Source: Catenuloplanes niger (GTDB lineage: Bacteria; Actinomycetota; Actinomycetes; Mycobacteriales; Micromonosporaceae). From it: a DNA stretch of 64,000 nucleotides. Under the pieces are notes generated by a model. That model searched no databases and had not been told where the DNA came from. It saw only the letters and a program-made list of their open reading frames with translations. The translations under genes were made by a program, and so were the position numbers. Below are positions 34,636 to 63,591 of this stretch, piece by piece (positions within the stretch are counted from its first letter, which is position 1; each line of letters opens with the position of its first letter). Location of the stretch: contig NZ_JAVDYC010000001.1 in the NCBI RefSeq assembly GCF_031458255.1, positions 7,860,501 to 7,924,500 on the forward strand, in the 5' to 3' direction.

Positions 34636-35781
34636 CTACCCTCGGTCGTCTCCCCGGCCCGGCGGTGTCCAGTCCAGGCAGACCGCGACCGCGTCGTCGA
34701 TCGACTCGCCGCCGATGAACGCGCGGAGGTCGCCGATCACCGAGCGGACCGCGGCGAGCGGGGACAGCGCGCCGCTGCGGGCCAGGAACCGGTCCAGCAG
34801 GCTGTCGCCGTACCGGGTGCCGCGCGCGGTGGCCTCCACGATCCCGTCGCTGACCACGAACAGCCGGTCGCCGGGCTCCAGCGTGAACGTCTGCGTGGTG
34901 TACATCGTGCCGTCGAACATGCCGAGCGGGTCCTGGGCCTCCAGCGTGACCGCGCTGATCTCGCCGTCGCGCAGCCGCAGCAGCCGCGGTGAGCCCGCGT
35001 CGACCGCGGTGACCACGCCGGTGTTCAGGTCCAGGTCCAGCAGCAGTGCGTCTATGTGCTGCGCACCCCGGTGGTAGGAGTAGATCGCCTGGTCCGCGAG
35101 CGTGGCCTGGTCCGCCACGTCCAGCCCGGCCCGGCGCGCGTTGCGCAGCGCGTTCATCGCCAGGCAGGTCAGGGTGGCCGCGGCCACCCCCTCGCCGTGC
35201 CCGTTTATCACCACGACCTGCAGCCGGTCCGGGTCGTCCGACCAGTCGAACGTGTCGCCGCGCACCGCGTACGCCGGCTCCAGCTGCCCGGCCAGCGCGA
35301 ACGCGGGCCCGGTGCGGCCCCGACCGGGAAGCAGCCCCCACTGCATCTCGGCCGCGAGCGTGAGCCGTTTCGTACGCGCGGCCACCGCGTACCGGTCGGT
35401 GCCCTCGCGCGCCGCGACCAGCGCGTGACCGAGCAGGTCCGCGACCTCGGCCAGCTCCGCGCGCAGGTGCGGGTCGTCCGGCGTGGGCGTGACCCGGATG
35501 ACGCCGAGCCGGTCACCGCGGACCGAGACGGGCAGCCACAGCGCCGCGCCGTCCACCACCTCGGCCAGGTGGTCGAAGGCGCGCCAGGCCGGTGCGCCGG
35601 GGTGGGTGACGGCCGGGCCGCCGTCCAGCGGCACCAGCTCGCTGAGCCGGTAGTCGATCTGGAACAGGTCCAGCGCGGCGATCGCGTACTGCTTCGTCAG
35701 GTATTCCGACAGGTGTTCCACGATCTGGTGGGCCGGTGCCGACATCAGCGTCCGCTGGGCGCCGATCAGACGATCGTGCAT
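34636..35781 (-). CDS. PP2C/SpoIIE-type phosphatase with an altered metal site
   Basis: The 381-residue protein has an N-terminal GAF-like sensor part (residues about 15-140) and a C-terminal PP2C/SpoIIE domain. Two metal-site segments are present: AVRGDTFDW and VVSDGIVEA, with a final SIDDAVAV Asp. The segment that is normally DxxGHG reads VINGHGEG, so the Asp three residues before GHG is Val. Loss of this ligand may weaken catalysis or mark a subfamily using a different metal set. The gene ends two bases before the start of the STAS gene, and the two form one unit. Confidence 0.85.
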   Translation of the reverse strand: MHDRLIGAQRTLMSAPAHQIVEHLSEYLTKQYAIAALDLFQIDYRLSELVPLDGGPAVTHPGAPAWRAFDHLAEVVDGAALWLPVSVRGDRLGVIRVTPTPDDPHLRAELAEVADLLGHALVAAREGTDRYAVAARTKRLTLAAEMQWGLLPGRGRTGPAFALAGQLEPAYAVRGDTFDWSDDPDRLQVVVINGHGEGVAAATLTCLAMNALRNARRAGLDVADQATLADQAIYSYHRGAQHIDALLLDLDLNTGVVTAVDAGSPRLLRLRDGEISAVTLEAQDPLGMFDGTMYTTQTFTLEPGDRLFVVSDGIVEATARGTRYGDSLLDRFLARSGALSPLAAVRSVIGDLRAFIGGESIDDAVAVCLDWTPPGRGDDRG

Positions 35782-53803: not shown

Positions 53804-54370
53804 ATGCGCACCCTGATCATCACCGCGTTCGTGTCCCTGGACGGCGTCATGGAGGCGCCCGGCGGCGAGCCCGGCTACCGCAATTCGGGCTGGACGTTCA
53901 AGGGCGTCGAATTCGACCCGGCCGCGTACGAGATCAAGGGGCGTGAGCAGGACGAGGCCGGCGCGCTGCTGGTCGGCCGCCGGTCCTACGAGGCGTTCGC
54001 GCCGATCTGGCCGACCATGACCGAGGACTTCAAGGGCTACAACAGCATGCCGCGGTACGTCGTGAGCACCACGCTGGCCGCGCCGGACGACCGCTGGCCG
54101 GCGACCGTCCTCCGCTCGCTGGACGAGGTGGCCGCGCTGAAGGAGACCGAGGGCGGCCCGATCATCGTGCACGGCAGCGCCACGCTCGGCGCCGCGCTCG
54201 CCGACGCCGGCCTGGTCGACCGGTACCACCTGCTGGTCTTCCCGCTGCTGCTGGGCGCCGGCAAGCGCCTGTTCAGCACGGCCGACCGGGACCTGACGAA
54301 GCTGCGGATCGTCGAGCACGAGGTCTACGGCAACGGCGTCCAGAAGCAGGTCTTCGACGTGGTGCGCTGA
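53804..54370 (+). CDS. Dihydrofolate reductase-like (RibD C-terminal) protein
   Basis: The 188-residue protein has the DHFR/RibD-C pattern: LIITAFVSLDGVMEAPGGEPGYRN, AGALLVGRRSYEAFAPIWP, MPRYVVSTTLAAP, GGPIIVHGSATLGAALADAGLVDRYHLLVFPLLLGAGKRLF. This family of reductases is abundant in actinobacteria and its substrates are mostly unknown. ATG at 53804 follows a GAGGAGAG site. It converges with a dehydrogenase gene. Confidence 0.88.
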   Translation: MRTLIITAFVSLDGVMEAPGGEPGYRNSGWTFKGVEFDPAAYEIKGREQDEAGALLVGRRSYEAFAPIWPTMTEDFKGYNSMPRYVVSTTLAAPDDRWPATVLRSLDEVAALKETEGGPIIVHGSATLGAALADAGLVDRYHLLVFPLLLGAGKRLFSTADRDLTKLRIVEHEVYGNGVQKQVFDVVR

Positions 54371-54377
54371 CGTCAGC
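54366..54377. terminator. Small palindrome carrying both convergent stop codons
   Basis: GCTGACGTCAGC is a perfect 12-bp palindrome. The TGA of the plus gene and the TGA of the minus gene both lie within it. Its stem is short, so terminator function is uncertain. Confidence 0.35.
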
Positions 54378-55284
54378 CGGCGTGCACGGTCTCGCGGATG
54401 GCCGCGTCCAGGGACCGGCCGCTGGCCGGCTCGATGTAGAGGTCGCGCCGCGCCAGCCGGGCGAACTCCGCGATGTCCAGGCCGGTCTCCCGGCCCGTGA
54501 GCGTGGTGAGCGCGGCACCGATCGTGGCCGGCACGGTGACCGCGAGGCCCGGGAGCCGGCGCACCGGCCGGGCCCGGCCGGTCGCGGCGGCCATCCGGGC
54601 GAACAGCTCGCGCCAGGTCAGGTTCTCGTCCGCGACCGGCAGGTCCGCGCCGCTGCCCCGGTCGAGCGCGTCGGCCGCGGTCTCGGCGACGCTGCGCGCG
54701 GAGACCGCGGCGGTGCCGCCGTCCGGCGCGAACAGCGGCGCGCCGGACCGGGCCCAGCGCTCCCACGACCCGGACCAGTTCGGCAGGCGCCCGCCGCCGC
54801 TGCCGAGCACGAACGGCAGCTCGATCACCGCGACCGGCAGCCCCGGGCCGGCCGCCGCGCGTGACTCCGCGGCCTGCTCGACCCGGCTGCGGATGTAGAC
54901 GTGCCGTTCCGGCAGCCGCCAATCGGGGTGCAGCCGGTGGAAGTACGTGTAGTACGAGCCCATCAGCACGCCGCGGGTCAGCCCCTCCTCGCGGGCTGCG
55001 GTGAACAGCCGGACCAGCGGGTCGACCATGTTCGCCCGGAACGCCGGGTGGGCCGGCTTCGGCACCGGCCGCTGCTCGTCCGTCCGCGCCGCGTAGACCA
55101 CGCCGTCGTGCCCGCGCAGCAGCGCCCGCAGGTCCGCGACGGAGGCCGTCTCCGCGTCCAGCATGCGGTGCACGTCCGGCCTGGCGGTGCGCGCCACGGC
55201 CGTCACCTCGTGCCCGCGATCGGACAGCACGCTGACCACGTGCGCCCCGATGAGACCGCTTCCACCGACCACGACAACCTTCAT
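54373..55284 (-). CDS. NAD-dependent epimerase/dehydratase-like protein
   Basis: The 303-residue protein has the Rossmann start MKVVVVGGSGLIGAHVVSVLSDRGHEVTAVAR and continues with DLRALLRGHDGVVYAARTDEQ and GVLMGSYYTYFHR. I do not find a clear YxxxK pair, so this may be an atypical short-chain dehydrogenase/epimerase or isoflavone reductase-like protein. The ATG is at 55284; it is divergent from the nitroreductase gene. Confidence 0.78.
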   Translation of the reverse strand: MKVVVVGGSGLIGAHVVSVLSDRGHEVTAVARTARPDVHRMLDAETASVADLRALLRGHDGVVYAARTDEQRPVPKPAHPAFRANMVDPLVRLFTAAREEGLTRGVLMGSYYTYFHRLHPDWRLPERHVYIRSRVEQAAESRAAAGPGLPVAVIELPFVLGSGGGRLPNWSGSWERWARSGAPLFAPDGGTAAVSARSVAETAADALDRGSGADLPVADENLTWRELFARMAAATGRARPVRRLPGLAVTVPATIGAALTTLTGRETGLDIAEFARLARRDLYIEPASGRSLDAAIRETVHAG

Positions 55285-55366
55285 GGGCACATTGTCCGGA
55301 CCGGACGGGCGCGCCGCCACCCACGGCGGAACGGCTGGCCACCCCGCCGGGACCGCATGAATCATT

Positions 55367-55386
55367 AAAGGTCTTTCGGCCCTGAA
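55367..55386. promoter_or_regulatory. DosR-like box before the Acg-type nitroreductase
   Basis: The element AAAGGTCTTTCGGCCCTGAA (55367-55386) resembles the DosR palindrome: GG(A/T)C(T/C)TT in the left half and GGCCC in the right. It shares the TTCGGCCCTG block with the fourth box of the dosR-like promoter array. It lies 53 bases before the nitroreductase start. Confidence 0.6.
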
Positions 55387-55438
55387 TGGTGCCCGGCTCG
55401 CAGGTCAGAGTGGAGGGAACACGTTCAGGAGGTATGTC

Positions 55439-56443
55439 ATGGTCCGGATCCCGCTGGCGGAGGACGCCGCTGTCCGCACGGCACCGGACGGTTACCTGGC
55501 GGAGGACCTCGCCGCCGCGGTCACCGCGGCCGTGCGGGCGCCCTCGCAGCACAACACGCAGCCGTGGCGGTTCCGGTTGTCCGGCGGCGCGATCGAGATC
55601 AGGTCCGACCCGGCGCGGCGGCTGCCGATCGCGGACCCGACCGGCTGGGCGGTGCGGATCGCCTGCGGGGCCGCGCTGTGCAACGCGCGGCTGGCGCTGG
55701 CCGCGCGCGGGCGGCCGGCCGACGGCGTGATCCGGCCGGTGCCGGCGGAGGCGGACCTGGTGGCGCGGCTGGTCCCGGGCCCGCCCCGGCCGGCCACCCC
55801 GGCCGAGCTGGCGCTGCTCGCGGCCGTACCGAGGCGGCGCAGCACGCGCGCCCGGTTCTCGGCCCGCCCGGTGCCCGCGTCGATCCGGGCCCGGTTGCTG
55901 GACGCGGTGCGCTCCGAGGGCGGCTGGCTGGACCTGATCGTGGGCACGGCGGCCGTGACCGCGGTCGCGGAGATCGCGCACAGCGCGGACCGGGTGCTGC
56001 GGCGCAACGACGACTACCGCGCGGAGATCGAGGCGTGGACCCGCCCGGCGCCGTCGTTCGACGGCGTGCCGCCGGAGGCCGCGGGCCCCACGGCCGACCC
56101 GACGGACGTCCTGCCCCGGCGCGACTTCGGCGGCGCGGTGCCGGAGCGGCCCGGGACCCCGGAGCCGGAGCCGCTCGTCGCGGTGCTGGGTTCCCCGGCG
56201 GACACCGCGGCCGAGCAGATCGCGGCCGGCCGGGCGCTGCAGAAGCTGCTGCTCACGGTCACCGACGCCGGCCTGGCCGCGTCGATGGTGTCGCAGCCGA
56301 TCGAGGTGCCGGCCGCGCGTGAGCAGCTGCGGCTCGCGCTCGGCCGGTTCGGCCCGCCGCAGATGGTGGTCCGGATCGGCTACGCGGCCCCGGGCGCGGT
56401 CACGCCGCGCCGCGCCGCGGAAAGCGTGATCATCCCGGAGTAG
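55439..56443 (+). CDS. Acg-family FMN nitroreductase-like protein
   Basis: The 334-residue sequence matches the Acg/Rv3131 group: APSQHNTQPWRFRLSGGAIEIRSDPARRLPIADPTGWAVRIACGAALCNARLAL near the N-terminus, a helical middle, and VAVLGSPADTAAEQIAAGRALQKLLLTVTDAGLAASMVSQPIEVP near the C-terminus. In mycobacteria Acg (Rv2032) and its relatives Rv3131 and Rv3127 are core members of the DosR regulon; the exact activity is not settled and may involve flavin sequestration. The start follows AGGAGG. The DosR-like box upstream supports the same kind of control here. Confidence 0.9.
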   Translation: MVRIPLAEDAAVRTAPDGYLAEDLAAAVTAAVRAPSQHNTQPWRFRLSGGAIEIRSDPARRLPIADPTGWAVRIACGAALCNARLALAARGRPADGVIRPVPAEADLVARLVPGPPRPATPAELALLAAVPRRRSTRARFSARPVPASIRARLLDAVRSEGGWLDLIVGTAAVTAVAEIAHSADRVLRRNDDYRAEIEAWTRPAPSFDGVPPEAAGPTADPTDVLPRRDFGGAVPERPGTPEPEPLVAVLGSPADTAAEQIAAGRALQKLLLTVTDAGLAASMVSQPIEVPAAREQLRLALGRFGPPQMVVRIGYAAPGAVTPRRAAESVIIPE

Positions 56444-56508
56444 GACGGGCCGCGTTCGCGCGTGTCGGGGCTGGGCGGACGGGGTGACGGCAGGGCAGTG
56501 TAGGCCCC

Positions 56509-57288
56509 ATGCGGCTCGCTACCTGGAACGTCAACTCCGTGAAGGCCCGCCTCCCGAGGCTGCTCGACTGGCTGGAGACCCGGCAGCCGGACGTGCTCTG
56601 CCTGCAGGAGCTCAAGGTTTCGGCCGCGCAGTTCCCGGCCGCGGAGGTGCGCGCGCTCGGCTACGACGCGGCCGTGCACGGCGACGGCCGGTGGAACGGC
56701 GTGGCGGTGCTGTCCCGCGTCGGCCTGGCCGACGTGCGCACCGGCTTCGACGGTGACCCGGGCTTCCCGGACGAGGTCACGCGGGAGACCCGTGCGGTGT
56801 CCGCCACCTGCGGCGGCCTGCGCGTATGGTCGATCTACGTGCCGAACGGGCGGACGCCGGACGATCCGCACTATAATTACAAGCTGCTCTGGCTCGCCCG
56901 CCTGACAGAGGCGCTGGAGCGCGAGCCGACGCCGCTCGCCGTGTGCGGGGACTTCAACGTCGCCCCGACCGACGACGACGTGTGGGACCCCGCGGTCTTC
57001 GTCGGCTCCACCCACGTGACAAAGCCGGAACGGGACGCGTTGACCACTCTCCGTGAGCGGCGCGGGTTGCACGACATCGTGCCACGGCCGCTGAAGGGAG
57101 ATCGTCCGTTCACCTACTGGGACTACCGCGCCGGTATGTTCCACCAGAACAAAGGCATGCGGATCGACCTGGTCTACGCGACCGATCCGGTGCCGTCGCG
57201 GGTGACCGATGCTTACGTCGACCGCGAGGCGCGCAAGGGAAAGGGTCCGTCGGACCACGCGCCGATCGTGGTCGACATCGATCTGTGA
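56509..57288 (+). CDS. xth: Exodeoxyribonuclease III / AP endonuclease
   Basis: The 259-residue protein is a complete exonuclease III: MRLATWNVNSVKARL, CLQELKVSAAQFP (metal Glu), RVWSIYVPNGR, LAVCGDFNVAPTDDD (catalytic Asp/Asn) and GMRIDLVYATDPV ending in KGPSDHAPIVVDIDL (Asp-His). It repairs abasic sites and 3' blocks in DNA. It starts at ATG 56509. It is followed at short distance by the PAS-PP2C operon, from which a 7-bp hairpin and a promoter separate it. Confidence 0.94.
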   Translation: MRLATWNVNSVKARLPRLLDWLETRQPDVLCLQELKVSAAQFPAAEVRALGYDAAVHGDGRWNGVAVLSRVGLADVRTGFDGDPGFPDEVTRETRAVSATCGGLRVWSIYVPNGRTPDDPHYNYKLLWLARLTEALEREPTPLAVCGDFNVAPTDDDVWDPAVFVGSTHVTKPERDALTTLRERRGLHDIVPRPLKGDRPFTYWDYRAGMFHQNKGMRIDLVYATDPVPSRVTDAYVDREARKGKGPSDHAPIVVDIDL

Positions 57289-57292
57289 CCGG

Positions 57293-57360
57293 TTACGGTG
57301 AAAACTGTCACCGTCAGATGCAACAGTTGCTGCCAAGCAAGTAGGGCGTAGGCTGGCTGT
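57293..57360 (+). promoter_or_regulatory. Candidate promoter and palindromes of the PP2C-B12-STAS operon
   Basis: ACGGTGA/TCACCGT (57295-57301 with 57308-57314) is a hairpin or operator past the xth stop. GCAAC-A-GTTGC (57320-57330) is a perfect palindrome that overlaps a -35-like TTGCTG (57327-57332). TAGGCT (57349-57354) follows after 16 bases and is a good actinobacterial -10. The start codon is 58 bases further on. The palindrome over the -35 would suit a repressor. Confidence 0.45.
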
Positions 57361-57411
57361 TGACCGCGCTGAACGACTCAAAACCGACACCCGGAACCGG
57401 AGGAGATTGCC

Positions 57412-59022
57412 GTGACGGGGATACGGAACGTCAGCACGCCACCGCCCACTCATCTATTGCACGCCGTCCTCGACGCCACCGCCGAGGCGGTGCTGCTCTG
57501 CGACGGCCAGGGCGCGGTCCTGCACGCGAACGCCGCCGCCCACCGCCTGCTGCCCGGCCTGCTCACCATCCGGGAGATCACCGACGACCCGGACTCGTTC
57601 GACCGGGAACTGCACGGGCGCCCGCTGCGGGGCCGCCGCCAGCCGGTCGACGACGCGCACGACGTCTGGACCGTGCACGACTGCACGGACGAGGCGACCC
57701 GGGTGGCCGCGATCGCGGAGGAGCGCGAACGCACCGCCTTCCTGGTCGAGGCGAGCCGCCGGCTCTCCGCCTCGCTGCACCGGGGCCGCTGCGTGCGCAC
57801 CACGGTCGAGCTGGCCGCCGCGCACCTGGCGGACGCGGCCGTGGTCGTGCTGCCCCCGTCCCGGCACCGGGTCGAGTGGGTGCGCGCGGTCACCGGCAGC
57901 CGCTTCGAGAGCGGCGTGATGAAGGAACGCGACGCCGAGAGCGTCCCCGGCCTGGCCGAGGCGCTCGCCGGTTTCCCGCCGGTGCCGAGCCGCTGGCTGG
58001 ACCAGACCCAGGTGCCGGCGTCGCTGCTGCCGCCCGGGTTCGGCGAGATCGGCGCGCTGCTGGTCACGCCGCTGCCCGGCAACGGTGTGCCGGCCGGCGC
58101 GCTGATCCTGGCCCGGCGCGCACCCGGCGTCTTCTCCGAGTCCGAGGAACTGCAGGCCCGCATCTTCGCGGCCCGCGCCGGCGGTGCGATCTCCGCGGCC
58201 GTGCTCTACCAGGAGCAGGTGGAGACGACCGCGATCCTGCAGGCCGACCTGCTCCCGCCGGAGCTGCCGCACATCGACGGGCTGGAACTGGCCGGGGCGT
58301 ACCGGCCGGCCAAGGAGGCGTCCCGGATCGGCGGCGACTTCTACGACGCGTACCCGCGCACGGCCTCGCTGGCCCCGTCCGGCACGGACGCGGAGACCAT
58401 GATCGTGCTCGGTGACGTGGTCGGCAAGGGGCCGAAGGCGGCCGTGCTGGCCGGCAAGGTCCGCCAGACGCTGCGCGCGCTGCGCCTGCTGGAGGGCCGC
58501 CCCGAACCGCTGCTGCGGGTGCTCAACCAGGCGTTGATAGACCCGCGCGACCGCACCCGGTTCGTCACCATGGTGCTGGCCTCGATGGTCCGCGACGGCG
58601 ACGGCTGGCGGGTCTCGGCCGCGTCCGGCGGGCACCCGCCACCGCTGGTCCTGCGCGCGCGGGGCGGCATCGAGGCGGTCCCGGCCAGGGGCACGCTGAT
58701 CGGCGTCACCGGCCCGATCCGGGTGGAGACCGCGACGGTCCGGCTCGCCCCCGGCGACCTGCTGCTGCTCTACAGCGACGGCCTGTTCGAGGCGCGCGGC
58801 GGCGTCGGCGGCCGGGAGGCCTACGGTGAGGACCGCCTCGCCGACTCGCTCGCCAGCTGCCGGGACATGCCCGCCGCCGCGGTCGTGGAACGGCTGGAAC
58901 AACTCGTCTCCGACTGGATCAACGGCGCCGGGCACGACGACATCGCGATGCTGGCCGTGCGCGTACCCCCGCGCGTTCCCGAGAACGGGTTCCACCCGGT
59001 GAACCTCCGGCGGGTCCGATGA
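57412..59022 (+). CDS. PAS-GAF-PP2C (SpoIIE-type) protein phosphatase
   Basis: The 536-residue protein has an N-terminal PAS-like domain (about 15-115), a GAF-like domain (about 120-280) and a SpoIIE/RsbU-type PP2C phosphatase (about 290-525). All metal-site segments are present: SRIGGDFYDAYP, VLGDVVGKGPKAAVL, LLLLYSDGLFEARGG and GAGHDDIAMLAV. Such enzymes dephosphorylate STAS anti-sigma-factor antagonists and so release sigma factors. GTG 57412 follows GGAGGAG. Its stop overlaps the next gene by four bases, and that gene overlaps a STAS gene by four, so phosphatase, B12 sensor and likely substrate are made together. Confidence 0.93.
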   Translation: MTGIRNVSTPPPTHLLHAVLDATAEAVLLCDGQGAVLHANAAAHRLLPGLLTIREITDDPDSFDRELHGRPLRGRRQPVDDAHDVWTVHDCTDEATRVAAIAEERERTAFLVEASRRLSASLHRGRCVRTTVELAAAHLADAAVVVLPPSRHRVEWVRAVTGSRFESGVMKERDAESVPGLAEALAGFPPVPSRWLDQTQVPASLLPPGFGEIGALLVTPLPGNGVPAGALILARRAPGVFSESEELQARIFAARAGGAISAAVLYQEQVETTAILQADLLPPELPHIDGLELAGAYRPAKEASRIGGDFYDAYPRTASLAPSGTDAETMIVLGDVVGKGPKAAVLAGKVRQTLRALRLLEGRPEPLLRVLNQALIDPRDRTRFVTMVLASMVRDGDGWRVSAASGGHPPPLVLRARGGIEAVPARGTLIGVTGPIRVETATVRLAPGDLLLLYSDGLFEARGGVGGREAYGEDRLADSLASCRDMPAAAVVERLEQLVSDWINGAGHDDIAMLAVRVPPRVPENGFHPVNLRRVR

Positions 59023-60086
59023 CGACGATCACACCGATCCTTCCCGGCGTCGACGAGCAGTACCTCGAGCTCATCGGCGCCGGTGACGAATGGGGCGCGA
59101 CCGACCTGGTGCTCTCGCTCTGGGAGAACGGCGCCGACCCCGAGCAGCTGCTGCTCGGCCTGATCGCGCCCGCCCAGGTGCGCGTCGGTGAGCTCTGGGC
59201 CGCGAACGAGTGGTCGGTCGCGCGCGAGCACGGCGCCACCGCCACCAGCGAACGCGCGATCGCCGCGCTCGTCGCCCGCGCCGCGCCCCGGCCCACGCTC
59301 GGCCGGATAACCGTCGCCTGCACGGACGGCGAATGGCACGCGCTACCGCCCCGGCTGCTCGGCGAGGTGCTGCGGCTGCGCGGCTGGCGGGTCGACTTCC
59401 TCGGCGCGAACGTGCCCGGTCCGCACCTGGTCACCCACCTGCACCAGACCGGCCCGGACGTGGTCGCGCTCAGCTGCGCGCTGCCGACCCGGCTGCCCCG
59501 CGCCCACGCCACGCTCACCGCGTGCCAGGCCGTCGGCGTACCGGTGCTGGCCGGCGGCCGTGGCTTCGGTGTGGACGGCCGGCACGCCCGCCTGCTCGGC
59601 GCGGACGGCTGGGCCGCGACCGCCACCGAGGCCGCGGACATCCTCGACGCCGGCTGGAACCCGCCGGCCCGCGCCCCGCACGACGACCTGGCCCACCTCG
59701 CGGACGAGGAGTACACCCAGCTCGTCCGGCAGCGCCACAAGATAATCGTCGGCGTGCTGGACCGGCTCCGCGACGCGTACCCGCCGATGCGCGCCTACGA
59801 CGCCCGCCAGGCCGACGCGACCGCCGAGGACGTCACGCACATCGTCGACTTCCTGGCCGCCGCGCTCTACGTCGACGACGCCGCCGTCTTCACCGACTTC
59901 CTCAGCTGGACCGCCGCGGTGCTGGCCGCCCGCGGCGTCCCCCCAGCGGCACTGACGGTCTGCCTCGACCTGCTCAACGCCGACCTCCGCGACTTCCCCC
60001 GCGCGGGGGAACTGTTGAAACTGGGTTTAGCGGAACTGGCCCCGGGTAAGTCTCCGGGCCAGGACAGCACAAGGCCGGAGCGATGA
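59019..60086 (+). CDS. Stand-alone B12-binding sensor with CarH-type light motif
   Basis: The 355-residue protein has a helical B12-binding N-terminal domain (about 10-90) and a Rossmann B12 domain (about 94-215). It carries the W-x9-EH motif of CarH/LitR photoreceptors (Trp60, Glu70, His71 in LWAANEWSVAREHGA) and a candidate lower-ligand His107 in DGEWHALP; the 36-residue gap from His71 to His107 nearly equals the 35 of Thermus CarH (His142 to His177). CarH uses adenosylcobalamin to sense light. No MerR DNA-binding domain is present. A helical C-terminal domain (about 225-340, HIVDFLAAALYVDDAAVFTDFLSW) is of unknown type. Light response is inferred; the gene overlaps neighbours on both sides. 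Confidence 0.87.
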   Translation: MTTITPILPGVDEQYLELIGAGDEWGATDLVLSLWENGADPEQLLLGLIAPAQVRVGELWAANEWSVAREHGATATSERAIAALVARAAPRPTLGRITVACTDGEWHALPPRLLGEVLRLRGWRVDFLGANVPGPHLVTHLHQTGPDVVALSCALPTRLPRAHATLTACQAVGVPVLAGGRGFGVDGRHARLLGADGWAATATEAADILDAGWNPPARAPHDDLAHLADEEYTQLVRQRHKIIVGVLDRLRDAYPPMRAYDARQADATAEDVTHIVDFLAAALYVDDAAVFTDFLSWTAAVLAARGVPPAALTVCLDLLNADLRDFPRAGELLKLGLAELAPGKSPGQDSTRPER

Positions 60087-60439
60087 TCGACGATTCCCCG
60101 TTACGCATCCACACCAGTCACCCCGACAAGGCGACAGTAGTCCTGTCGCTCTTCGGCGACCTCGACTTCGACACCGCCGAAGAGCTCGTCGACCAGGCCA
60201 CCCGCGCCCTCACCCCCGCCATCCGCGCCATCTGCCTCGACCTCTCCGGCCTCTACATCTGCGACTCCTCCGGCCTGAGCGCGCTGATCCACATCAGCCA
60301 GGACGCCCGCGGCACCGGCGCCACCTTCACGATGACCGGCATCACCGCCCAGCTCCGCCGGATCCTCGAGGTCACCGGCCTGGACACGGTGCTGGGCACC
60401 GCGGCGCACGACGACGACCGCGCGGGGGCGCATTCCTGA
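60083..60439 (+). CDS. STAS-domain anti-sigma factor antagonist
   Basis: A 118-residue STAS protein: ATVVLSLFGDLDFDTAEELVDQATRAL and the switch region ICLDLSGLYICDSSGLSALIHISQDARG, with the Ser-Ser pair where anti-sigma kinases phosphorylate. It is the third gene of the coupled operon and the most probable substrate of the PP2C enzyme encoded at 57412-59022. The anti-sigma kinase and sigma factor are not in the window. Confidence 0.9.
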   Translation: MIDDSPLRIHTSHPDKATVVLSLFGDLDFDTAEELVDQATRALTPAIRAICLDLSGLYICDSSGLSALIHISQDARGTGATFTMTGITAQLRRILEVTGLDTVLGTAAHDDDRAGAHS

Positions 60440-60775
60440 GGCATCCATCTACCCCGCCGCCTCACCTCACCCTCCGCATGCTCCCGCGGGCACCGCTCGG
60501 CCGTTGGCCGGCCTCCCTGTCAGAACCGAGGCCGCACGACCGACCCCACCGCCCTCTCCCCGTCCGCCGCGCCGATCCACGGCCTCCGGCGGGCCGCGGG
60601 TTCCGCCGGACTGCGGGTTGCGCGCGAATCCCTGAACCATCGGCGATCCGCACCCGGACAAGGCCACGAACGCCCATTCGCCCGTTCCGCTATATGGCGA
60701 AATTTCGGATAGGGGAGTGGGCGTCTCGCTTTTGCCGGTGCCGACCGGGTGGCTTCGTTCGCGCATTCTCGTCGG
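60440..60775. other. Intergenic region with the second dispersed-repeat copy
   Basis: A 336-bp convergent interval without a gene. It contains copy B of the 66-bp repeat and, further right (60685-60720), an AT-richer segment with a palindromic CGAAATTTCG. Nothing else is recognised. Confidence 0.55.
60471..60536 (-). repeat. Dispersed 66-bp intergenic repeat, copy B
   Basis: Inverted relative to copy A at 49066-49131, with about 59 of 66 bases shared. The differences cluster in one six-base block and three single positions. It starts 31 bases after the STAS stop. Confidence 0.8.
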
Positions 60776-61174
60776 CTATGTCGCTCGGGCAGGGTTCCGT
60801 CGGGTTCCGACGTAGTCCATGTACTCCTCGCCCGCTACCGCGTGGTTGACCCAGCGGCCGGGGTTCGCGTCGGTGAGGCGCTCGGCGAGCGCCATCGCTT
60901 CTTCCGCATCTTCGCTGAGGGTCAGCTCCCGGCCTTCTCCGACGTACGCCTCGTCGACCGGGTCGAGCGAGATGAGGTTGGCCAGGTCACCTACCCGGTC
61001 GTCATCAGGGTCGTGCACGGTGTGAAGTGAGATCCGGTACTGCCCGTTCATGGGGCTGATCGACTCCCATCGAATGGCCGGTTCGCCGCCGATCTTGACG
61101 CCGCCGAGGAACTGTTCGATCCCGTGGCCTCGACGCAATGCACCGATCGCGAACGGTCGGGTGAGATACCGCAT
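60776..61174 (-). CDS. Hypothetical 132-aa protein
   Basis: I do not recognise a family. The protein is acidic with a small alpha/beta look (GYRISLHTVHDPDDDRVGDLANLISLDPVDE and a C-terminal helix with EEAMALAERLTDANPGRWVNHAVAGEEYMDYVG). It is soluble with no signal. It sits in a less GC-rich patch beside a transposase remnant, so it may have arrived by transfer. The start may be ATG 61174. Confidence 0.6.
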   Translation of the reverse strand: MRYLTRPFAIGALRRGHGIEQFLGGVKIGGEPAIRWESISPMNGQYRISLHTVHDPDDDRVGDLANLISLDPVDEAYVGEGRELTLSEDAEEAMALAERLTDANPGRWVNHAVAGEEYMDYVGTRRNPARAT

Positions 61175-61212
61175 CGGGAGAGCGTAGTGCCATCCTGCTC
61201 GATCGCTGATCG

Positions 61213-61365
61213 ACCAGCGAGCGGGACACGCTTGCGCAGCAGGTCGAAGCCGACTCCGCCGTACATCTGGCGTCTGATCGTCTTGATGCGGTTGACGTTG
61301 CCTTCGACCGGTCCGGAGCTGATAAACAGATCACCGCCGGCTTGGCGTGCTCCTGCAGCCAGTCC
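61213..61365 (-). pseudogene. Remnant of an ISL3-family transposase C-terminus
   Basis: The minus strand encodes SGPVEGNVNRIKTIRRQM and then FDLLRKRV, the conserved C-terminal signature of ISL3-type transposases (SG-VEG-VNRIK...RQMFGR..FDLLRKRVL). Only about 50 residues remain, with no start and no catalytic region. Both ends grade into unrelated sequence, and no terminal inverted repeats are visible. Confidence 0.8.
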
Positions 61366-61412
61366 GTCCTTACAAACGGTCAGCGACAGGGAACCGGTCC
61401 ACACTGACTCGC

Positions 61413-61889
61413 GTGACTACCGTAGCCGGATGGATCTTCGAGCAGAACGTCGTCCGTTTCCTTGAGCACTTGAGCCACTATGTCGGCCACCAGTACGATG
61501 CGGCAGACGAAGATGCCCTGGTCGGGGCCCTCGACGGGACCGATGACGAGTCCGACACCGGATGGTTCCAATACCCCCTTCAGGGGGTGCCACCGGTCCT
61601 GGTCTCCCTCGCCCGAGCTGTTGGCGGCAGCGTTGTCAGCGTTCGCATCGACGGAGCCATCGACAGCGTCCTGGAAGCACGGATCAACACCATGCTCGAC
61701 CTGTTGTGGACGGCCATCGAGGGGTGCCGTCCATACTTCGTGCGACAGAACCCGCGAGTCGCGAGCAAATCCACAGTGCGACGCTCCGCTTTCGTGTGTG
61801 CCGCGCGGGCTGTCGCTGTGGTGCTCTGTTTCGTGCGGGCCGCGGTGTCCGGAGCGCCACCCCGCGCATCCGCGCTTTCGGTAATGTGA
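61413..61889 (+). CDS. Hypothetical 158-aa protein, possibly chimeric at its 3' end
   Basis: Residues 1-85 look like a normal acidic actinobacterial hypothetical protein (FEQNVVRFLEHLSHYVGHQYDAAD, WFQYPLQGVPPVLVSLARAVGGSVVSVRIDGAIDSVLEARINTMLDLL), with a pattern I associate with small toxin-immunity or DUF proteins that end near this point. The rest (from about 61700) is Cys/Arg/Val-rich and reads as out-of-family sequence, so the gene may have lost its own stop. The GTG at 61413 is tentative. It begins about 50 bases past the transposase remnant. Confidence 0.45.
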   Translation: MTTVAGWIFEQNVVRFLEHLSHYVGHQYDAADEDALVGALDGTDDESDTGWFQYPLQGVPPVLVSLARAVGGSVVSVRIDGAIDSVLEARINTMLDLLWTAIEGCRPYFVRQNPRVASKSTVRRSAFVCAARAVAVVLCFVRAAVSGAPPRASALSVM

Positions 61890-62337
61890 GATATTTGCGC
61901 GAAACATCCTTATCCTGTGAAAATCATGCCGATTGCACAACTGTGGCTATCGGCGAATTCGCGGGAAGTGCGACATTTCAACTCATGTCGTTTTTCGGTA
62001 CCGCCCAGCGGCTCCGGCGCCGCCTCACAGTGACATTCTGCGACGTGCGCTCCCGCCCGGCCGGCCTCCGCGGTTGCCGGGGGAGCGCGTCCGGACGCGT
62101 CCGCGCCGAGGACGGAGGCGGCCCGCCTGAGTGATTGCTCAGTTAATTACCGTTGCCGCCGGGATGTGGGAGCGGCGGGACTTCGATAGCGTGCGCGGAG
62201 GGTATGACGGTCGGTGCGCTGGTCGTCGCTTAAGTTGATCACCCGTCAGTGTGGTCTCTAGCTGCGGGGCTGGGTCCGTGGGTACCATCCCGGCGGCGCG
62301 GCGGCGCGCCGGCCGGGAACGGGTGGGGGAGACAGCA
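61890..62337. other. AT-richer intergenic region before the Hsp70-like gene
   Basis: Bases 61890-62010 are markedly AT-rich for this window and may hold promoters. An inverted repeat CTGAG-TGATTG-CTCAG (62127-62142) lies near the middle. No gene is seen in the 448 bases. Confidence 0.5.
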
Positions 62338-63591
62338 GTGGAGAGTCCGTCGCAGCTGGCGGTGGATCTGGGCACGACTCACACGGTCGCGGTCGTCGGG
62401 CAGCCCGGTGAGGCGCCTCGTACGCTGCTGTTCGACGGGTACTCGCTCATGGATTCGGGCGTCTACCTGGATGCCGAGGGCAACATCGTGACCGGCCTGG
62501 AGGCGACCCGGCTCGGTGCGAACGACCCGGTCCGGTTCGAGCCGCACCCGAAGCGGCGCGTCGGCGAGGGGTCGATCCCGCTCGGCGGTGTCGAGGTGCC
62601 GGTGGTGCTGCTGCTCAGCGCGGTGCTGTCCCGGGTCGCGTACGAGGCGCGGATGGCCGGGGTGAACCCGGACGGCGCGTTGCTGACCTGCCCGGTCGGG
62701 TGGGGGCGGCAGCACCGGGAGATGCTGACGGACGCGGCGCGCCGGGCCGGCATGGGCGAGGTGCGGCTGCTCGAGGAGCCGGTCGCGGCCGCGGTCTACT
62801 GCACGCAGGTCGAGGGCCACCACGTACCGTTCGGTGGCTCGATCGCGGTGTTCGACTTCGGCGGCGGCACGCTGGACGTCACGGTCGTGCGCCGGGAGAT
62901 CAACGGCTGGCAGGTGGCGAGCACGGGCGGCCTGGCCGACCTCGGCGGCGTCGACATCGATCTGGCGCTGCTCGACCACCTGCGCCGGCACCTGGCCCGC
63001 CGCGACCCGGAGACGTGGAAGCGGCTGTTCCGGCCGCGCACGGCCGCGGAGCTGCGGTCGCGGCAGGACTTCCGGACGGAGGTGCGCGGCGCGAAGGAGG
63101 CGCTGTCCCGGAACTCGGCCGTGACGGTGCGGGTGCCCGGCTGGGACCGGCCGTTGCACCTGACCCGCGACGAGCTGGAGCACGTGGCGGAGCCGCTGGT
63201 CGCCCGCGCGGTCGAGGAGACCCGGCGGGTGGTCGAGGCGGCGGGTGTGTCGTCGTTCCTGCTGAACTCGCTGATGCTGGTCGGCGGGTCGAGCCGGATG
63301 CCGCTGGTGTCCACGCGCCTCTACGCCCGGCTCGGCACCACGCCGTCCGTCCCGGAGCAGCCGGAGCTGCCGGTCGCGGTCGGTGCGCTGGCCTACCACC
63401 GGCTCAGCCGCAACGAGGAGACCGGCGACCTCTCCCAGGTCGTCGCGATCACGCCGGAGTCCGGGCACGTCACGCGCGCCGGTCAGGCCGCGCAGAGTTT
63501 CCGTGTCCCGGTCGCCCAGCCGAAGCTTCGGCACCTGCAGCGGCGCTGGCTCGGCGCGGTCCGCAACGCGTTCAAGACACCGCGGGACTGA
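62338..63591 (+). CDS. Hsp70-like ATPase-domain protein
   Basis: The 417-residue protein matches the actin-fold ATPase half of Hsp70: LAVDLGTTHTVAVVG (phosphate 1), ALLTCPVGWGRQHREML, LLEEPVAAAVYCTQV, SIAVFDFGGGTLDVTVV (phosphate 2) and LMLVGGSSRMPLV (adenosine). The substrate-binding beta domain and lid are absent; only a short basic tail (LRHLQRRWLGAVRNAFKTP) remains. Such short Hsp70 relatives are common in actinobacteria and their roles are unknown. GTG 62338 follows GGGGGAGA; sequence upstream is not family-like. Confidence 0.87.
   Translation: MESPSQLAVDLGTTHTVAVVGQPGEAPRTLLFDGYSLMDSGVYLDAEGNIVTGLEATRLGANDPVRFEPHPKRRVGEGSIPLGGVEVPVVLLLSAVLSRVAYEARMAGVNPDGALLTCPVGWGRQHREMLTDAARRAGMGEVRLLEEPVAAAVYCTQVEGHHVPFGGSIAVFDFGGGTLDVTVVRREINGWQVASTGGLADLGGVDIDLALLDHLRRHLARRDPETWKRLFRPRTAAELRSRQDFRTEVRGAKEALSRNSAVTVRVPGWDRPLHLTRDELEHVAEPLVARAVEETRRVVEAAGVSSFLLNSLMLVGGSSRMPLVSTRLYARLGTTPSVPEQPELPVAVGALAYHRLSRNEETGDLSQVVAITPESGHVTRAGQAAQSFRVPVAQPKLRHLQRRWLGAVRNAFKTPRD

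Follow-up and report, generated by a model that had tools for sequence, protein, structure and literature searches.

Does a cobalamin-binding protein that lies between a serine phosphatase and an anti-sigma factor antagonist bring a light signal into a partner switch, and if so, what kind of photoreceptor is it? The question is raised by a three-gene operon in a 64,000-nucleotide stretch of the Catenuloplanes niger genome (contig NZ_JAVDYC010000001.1, positions 7,860,501 to 7,924,500), referred to here as the window, with positions counted from its first nucleotide. The genome is an actinomycete chromosome of 9.74 Mb, and the nearest named relative is Catenuloplanes japonicus (L040; 90% protein identity). 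A preliminary description, made from the letters of the window, had placed three open reading frames (ORFs) here with ATGA overlaps at both junctions, and the ORFs and the junction letters were confirmed:

57412..59022, + strand: gene for a PAS-GAF-PP2C serine phosphatase of the SpoIIE/RsbU type, 536 amino acids (ORF, Pfam, AlphaFold2, Foldseek)
59019..60086, + strand: photocobilin gene, encoding a predicted photoreceptor for adenosylcobalamin (AdoCbl) and biliverdin, 355 amino acids (phmmer, model superposition)
60083..60439, + strand: gene for a single-domain STAS anti-sigma factor antagonist, 118 amino acids (STAS_2, 5.1e-18; TIGR00377 above cut-off)
59019..59022, + strand: ATGA overlap of the PP2C stop and the photocobilin start (sequence)
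60083..60086, + strand: ATGA overlap of the photocobilin stop and the STAS start (sequence)
59049..59648, + strand: four-helix bundle and Rossmann B12-binding module with W60, E70-H71 and E105-x-H107 (Pfam B12-binding_2, B12-binding)
59688..60038, + strand: photoglobin domain, predicted to bind biliverdin, with D271 and W297 (alignment, model)

At the level of sequence, the operon combines a photocobilin with intact chromophore sites, a PP2C phosphatase whose active-site aspartates are intact and a STAS protein that retains its expected phosphorylation serine, all encoded by overlapping genes. It probably encodes a photocobilin-controlled partner switch, in which light would set the activity of the PP2C protein on the STAS protein and hence on an anti-sigma kinase.

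The B12 protein had been likened to CarH on the strength of a W-x9-EH motif and a lower-ligand His, and described as having no DNA-binding domain; these observations held, while its nearest relative turned out to be the photocobilin SasPcob and its globin half had been overlooked. Pfam found only B12-binding_2 and B12-binding domains in it and no MerR DNA-binding domain, the model begins directly with the B12 four-helix bundle, and the match to the NCBIfam CarH family fell far under the cut-off (41 of 400 bits). By far its best matches among solved structures by phmmer were to SasPcob (8j2x/8j2w; E about 2e-94, colinear over residues 8-339), followed by AbPcob (8j2y; 4e-50) and then by the cobalamin-binding proteins 1y80 (~1e-13) and 8jbs (~1e-12) and by CarH-type entries (8e-7 to 9e-6). 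An AlphaFold2 model (mean predicted local distance difference test score, pLDDT, 89) superposed on 8j2w with template modelling (TM) scores of 0.84 (query) and 0.90 (target) at 51% identity, and on CarH over the B12 half only, residues about 224-340 forming an additional, C-terminal all-helical (globin) domain. CarH and LitR bind DNA through a MerR domain and are not known to contain a globin; the window protein shares with them a homologous AdoCbl module, the W-x9-EH motif and the lower-ligand His, and differs in having a globin and no MerR match. On these comparisons the protein is a full-length photocobilin with a globin half predicted to bind bilin, closest to SasPcob and not to CarH. A separate gene of the same genome (L005:817-1887) has a sub-threshold B12-binding match, a MerR-like start and a Tyr where photocobilins have Trp, and its product is perhaps a degenerate CarH/LitR relative.

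SasPcob from Saccharothrix syringae (PDB 8J2W dark, 8J2X light) binds AdoCbl and biliverdin, responds to green and red light, and is a dimer in the dark and a monomer in the light (PMC10979010). By analogy with this closest characterised relative, a dark dimer that becomes a monomer in red or green light would be expected in place of the dark tetramer that had been anticipated. SasPcob resembles the window protein in standing alone, in full-length colinearity at 51% identity and in having the same B12 and biliverdin contact residues; it differs in that its chemistry is demonstrated, where that of the window protein is predicted, and its partners are only suggested through STRING, with no PP2C assay in the accessible text of PMC10979010. 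AbDPcob (photoreceptor part PDB 8J2Y) has the same photocobilin module, 37% identical to that of the window protein, and likewise regulates an enzyme; unlike the window protein with its separate PP2C, it is fused to a GGDEF enzyme and has His for the biliverdin Asp. Light activates this fused diguanylate cyclase, and light-state AbPcob and stand-alone holo-SasPcob activate a separate diguanylate cyclase domain in trans (PMC10979010).

Chain index and the published SasPcob numbers differ by 5; once this is allowed for, Trp61, Glu71, His72, His108, His137, Asp270 and Trp296 of SasPcob are W60, E70, H71, H107, H136, D271 and W297 in the window protein, and all seven AdoCbl or biliverdin contacts checked were thus present, W60, E70, H71 and the lower-ligand H107 at the very positions first given for them. 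An alignment of 125 photocobilins (the window protein and 124 loci; 109 linked to a PP2C gene and 16 unlinked) had W60, E70, H71 and H107 in every sequence, D271 in 119 (105/109 linked, 14/16 unlinked) and W297 in 124 (109/109 linked, 15/16 unlinked). H136, the equivalent of which in SasPcob contacts the biliverdin of the partner chain, was kept in 106/109 linked photocobilins versus 5/16 unlinked.

The biliverdin contacts bear on whether the protein is a green-only B12 photoreceptor whose globin half no longer binds biliverdin, a reading that we consider unlikely: AbDPcob binds biliverdin poorly (PMC10979010) and six of the 31 photocobilin genomes of the family have no Pfam heme oxygenase, whereas the window protein has D271 (the equivalent of Asp270, which is missing from AbPcob), W297 and H136, and two heme oxygenases are encoded in its genome. 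Across 81 genomes of the family, a heme oxygenase was found in 25 of the 31 with a photocobilin (E below 1e-40), one of these (G045) being a weak partial match at 3.4e-7, versus 23 of the 50 without (Fisher p 0.002, relatedness not corrected). One of the heme oxygenase genes of the operon genome (L242:5718-8437; G000:C1:5221717-5224436) lies ~1.2 kb from a SigB/F/G-type sigma gene on the same strand, with an ORF between them that reads as an LLM-type oxidoreductase; the pair recurs in 4 genomes of the same genus and was not spotted by eye in the other tabulated genomes. The supply of biliverdin is possibly linked to a sigma regulon.

The AdoCbl contacts speak to a second alternative, in which the protein would sense cobalamin level, the apo and AdoCbl-bound forms rather than dark and light setting the phosphatase. 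The B12 module is intact, and AdoCbl binding itself lowers the activity of the AbDPcob enzyme compared to the apo form (PMC10979010). A plain B12 gauge would nevertheless have no need of the invariant adenosyl-contacting W60 and E70-H71, nor of D271 (119/125) and W297 (124/125), and we regard this reading as improbable. Control by a cobalamin riboswitch was likewise rejected, as no Rfam match reached the gathering threshold in 54000-62500.

The two flanking proteins carry the residues expected of working partner-switch components, three further features being located as follows:

57445..57681, + strand: PAS domain, residues about 12-90, followed by a signalling helix at 92-119 (PAS_8 at cut-off; model)
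57781..58131, + strand: GAF-like domain, residues about 124-240, followed by a helix at 243-278 into the phosphatase (GAF below cut-off; model)
60266..60268, + strand: Ser62 in a D-S-S-G motif, expected phosphorylation site (Ser in 56/58 STAS sequences)

The earlier reading of the first gene as a complete PAS-GAF-PP2C phosphatase is supported by Pfam (SpoIIE, 4.3e-44; PAS_8 just at and GAF under the cut-off) and by the domain order PAS-helix-GAF-helix-PP2C in an AlphaFold2 model (mean pLDDT 85, predicted TM score 0.52). Foldseek matched the phosphatase part to RssB, Rv1364c RsbU-RsbW and SpoIIE, which are partner-switch phosphatases. The PP2C metal-binding Asp309 and Asp335 were present in 109/109 sequences and Asp456 and Asp510 in 108/109. 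Ser62 of the STAS protein is presumably the equivalent of the SpoIIAA/RsbV phosphorylation site.

Conservation of gene order was assessed from a genome-contig scan that yielded 482 relatives, with neighbours called by profile searches of six-frame ORFs. Among the best 80 loci of the 482, in which near relatives dominate, 79 had a PP2C gene directly upstream of the photocobilin gene, L115 being the exception, and 37 had a STAS gene immediately downstream of it. A start that would give a 4-nucleotide overlap was available at the PP2C-photocobilin junction in 54/80 loci and at the photocobilin-STAS junction in 24/37; these counts lean towards overlaps, as they take whichever in-frame start is closest to the stop of the preceding gene. 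Of another 40 regions, 26 had an adjacent PP2C gene and 14 had none, and 18 had an adjacent STAS gene. All 26 further loci belonging to the class of the window (same family, order or class) had PP2C, versus 0/14 outside it (same phylum only), where in L193 and L205 the sequence ahead of the photocobilin gene is shorter than 1.1 kb and PP2C may have been cut off. Of these 40, 25 are the full set of listed matches extending at least to model position 320, with that of the window itself excepted, and among them 11/11 class loci and 0/14 outside had PP2C; the other 15 were hand-picked. Since only 19 SpoIIE matches occur in the whole 9.74-Mb genome, the adjacency is not by chance. The gene order proposed for relatives thus recurred firmly for PP2C and less often for STAS.

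This distribution bears on whether the photocobilin acts on the STAS protein or the anti-sigma kinase and not on the phosphatase. The STAS gene does lie directly downstream and in overlap, and photoglobins, which fall within the bilin-binding globins, have a relative in the RsbR globin, which served as outgroup in PMC10151467; adjacency to PP2C in 79/80 best loci, against a STAS gene that is not adjacent in 43/80, nevertheless makes this alternative a doubtful one, on a par with the cobalamin-level sensor. That a corrinoid protein is merely co-transcribed with an unrelated phosphatase is very improbable, as the linkage is kept across Actinoplanes relatives, Streptomyces, Streptosporangium, Amycolatopsis and mycobacteria despite differing outer neighbours.

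The best indication that the photocobilin is part of an anti-sigma partner switch, and does not simply lie next to a phosphatase, came from gene rows in Amycolatopsis and in the Streptomyces locus L118. In all four Amycolatopsis loci (L086, L092, L096 and L104) a gene for an RsbW-type kinase (HATPase_c_2) immediately precedes the PP2C gene on the same strand, and in L086, L092 and L104 a STAS gene overlaps that kinase gene by 4 nucleotides, while no STAS was found on either side in L096. The kinase frame of L086 extends 8 nucleotides beyond a possible PP2C start, and Pfam, which was also run for L118, confirmed its kinase and STAS. L118 has the same order of STAS, kinase, PP2C, photocobilin and STAS with wider gaps, and the Amycolatopsis row STAS-kinase-PP2C-photocobilin-STAS would amount to a nearly full cassette. 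The module resembles the RsbU-RsbV-RsbW and SpoIIE-SpoIIAA-SpoIIAB systems in lining up a PP2C and a STAS gene, joined in Amycolatopsis and L118 by an HATPase_c_2 kinase gene; it differs in that the sensor is a light-type photocobilin.

The proposal that a B12 photoreceptor feeds an anti-sigma cascade is supported by sequence in respect of a photoreceptor-type protein, a conserved PP2C-STAS order and a kinase in some relatives, and not in respect of a simple CarH domain. We propose that in the dark a photocobilin dimer would hold AdoCbl and biliverdin, and that green light (via B12) or red light (via biliverdin) would break the Co-C bond and turn the dimer into monomers. The two forms may bind the phosphatase differently, probably at the PAS-GAF part or the linker helices, and would thereby set the rate at which PP2C dephosphorylates the STAS protein; this contact we infer from gene linkage alone. 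Unphosphorylated STAS would then capture an anti-sigma kinase of the RsbW type and so release a sigma factor of the SigB/F/G type; seven SigBFG factors scored above cut-off in the genome, none of them near the operon. With both chromophores bound, light would most likely activate the phosphatase, a direction guessed by analogy with holo-SasPcob. In this model the light chemistry and the action in trans are borrowed from SasPcob, and the partner switch is drawn from the PP2C and STAS proteins and the Amycolatopsis kinase.

Several observations weigh against this proposal. The three genes of the window operon include no kinase or sigma gene, and a kinase gene directly upstream was found in only 5/120 loci, the four of Amycolatopsis and L118. 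A STAS neighbour is not obligatory, given the 43 best loci in which it is not adjacent (36 of them xth-linked with Actinoplanes-type gene order), and a search of ORFs, first from 84 loci and later from 124, found no natural PP2C-photocobilin fusion. The six photocobilin genomes with no Pfam heme oxygenase, of which two were checked and both keep Asp271, argue against an absolute need for home-made biliverdin. SasPcob with AdoCbl and without biliverdin acted in the opposite sense, its dark form being the activating one (PMC10979010), so that membership of the family does not reveal which sign the response has. The mirror-tree correlation of 0.95 (r; 58 sequences per gene) was not used as proof, because shared ancestry alone yields high values.

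Three candidates from the neighbourhoods were set aside. The xth gene, upstream in 37/80 best loci, was taken as synteny and not as a functional partner because 36 of the 37 share the wider gene order. A SigB/F/G-type gene lies ~10-16 kb downstream of photocobilin in 15/17 Actinoplanes-type 20-kb regions (L246-L261), three of the 17 having been chosen because they showed such a gene, and it is absent in the two Catenuloplanes regions and in L265; it was treated as synteny. The two-family frame at L217 joins PP2C with a kinase and does not involve photocobilin.

The wiring idea is not new, because one sentence of PMC10979010, based on a STRING network, already suggests that SasPcob potentially meets STAS, SpoIIE and PP2C-like phosphatases. 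What is new is the evidence from whole operons, which takes in the kinase and the conservation across the class and goes beyond the accessible text of PMC10979010, of PMC11796333, which lists many biliverdin-B12 fusions, and of PMC10151467. Photocobilin-PP2C-STAS-kinase operons were not found worked out in the open-licence literature, and photoglobin neighbourhood results (Schneider 2022) may cover more. The one enzyme shown to respond to photocobilins in PMC10979010, as far as its accessible text goes, is a diguanylate cyclase, fused or in trans, and the function of stand-alone photocobilins is there called less clear. The conserved PP2C linkage names an enzyme and a substrate for a large stand-alone group, making its signalling output directly testable. 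There is about an even chance that, across Actinomycetes, stand-alone photocobilins are dedicated sensors of PP2C partner switches, a two-colour gate (green through B12, red through biliverdin) acting in trans on alternative sigma factors, in which case they would fill the role of RsbT or PAS-type sensors elsewhere. If so, visible light, sensed through two tetrapyrroles, would tune the sigma-factor programmes of soil actinomycetes that do not photosynthesise, and the system would offer a separable, red-responsive phosphatase switch.

Some variants of the module were also observed. Nine loci from one genus (g4) of the family (L189, L208-L212 and L219-L221) have one or two extra STAS genes divergently upstream of PP2C. 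Six plasmid records covered 80% of the query and four of them were examined, one of the four (L009) being a chromosome-sized record; the module was present on two Streptomyces plasmids, with genes for a STAS and an ATP-binding protein nearby in one. On another of the four, a Streptomyces plasmid (L008:5956-9925), a photocobilin gene without PP2C lies just upstream of gas-vesicle genes.

Upstream of the operon, one further feature was read from the sequence:

57399..57404, + strand: GGAGGA ribosome-binding site ahead of the GTG start of the PP2C gene

It is kept in four of five aligned Catenuloplanes-type sequences, the window included, and altered in L040. By consensus, no sigma-70-type promoter was found in 57000-60800. 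Between xth and the PP2C gene, at 57326-57356, a possible promoter with the pattern GTTGC...GGCGTA...GCTGG is kept in 4/5 of the Catenuloplanes-type sequences. A second SpoIIE/PP2C domain lies elsewhere in the window, at 34669-35232 on the minus strand (G000:C1:7895169-7895732).

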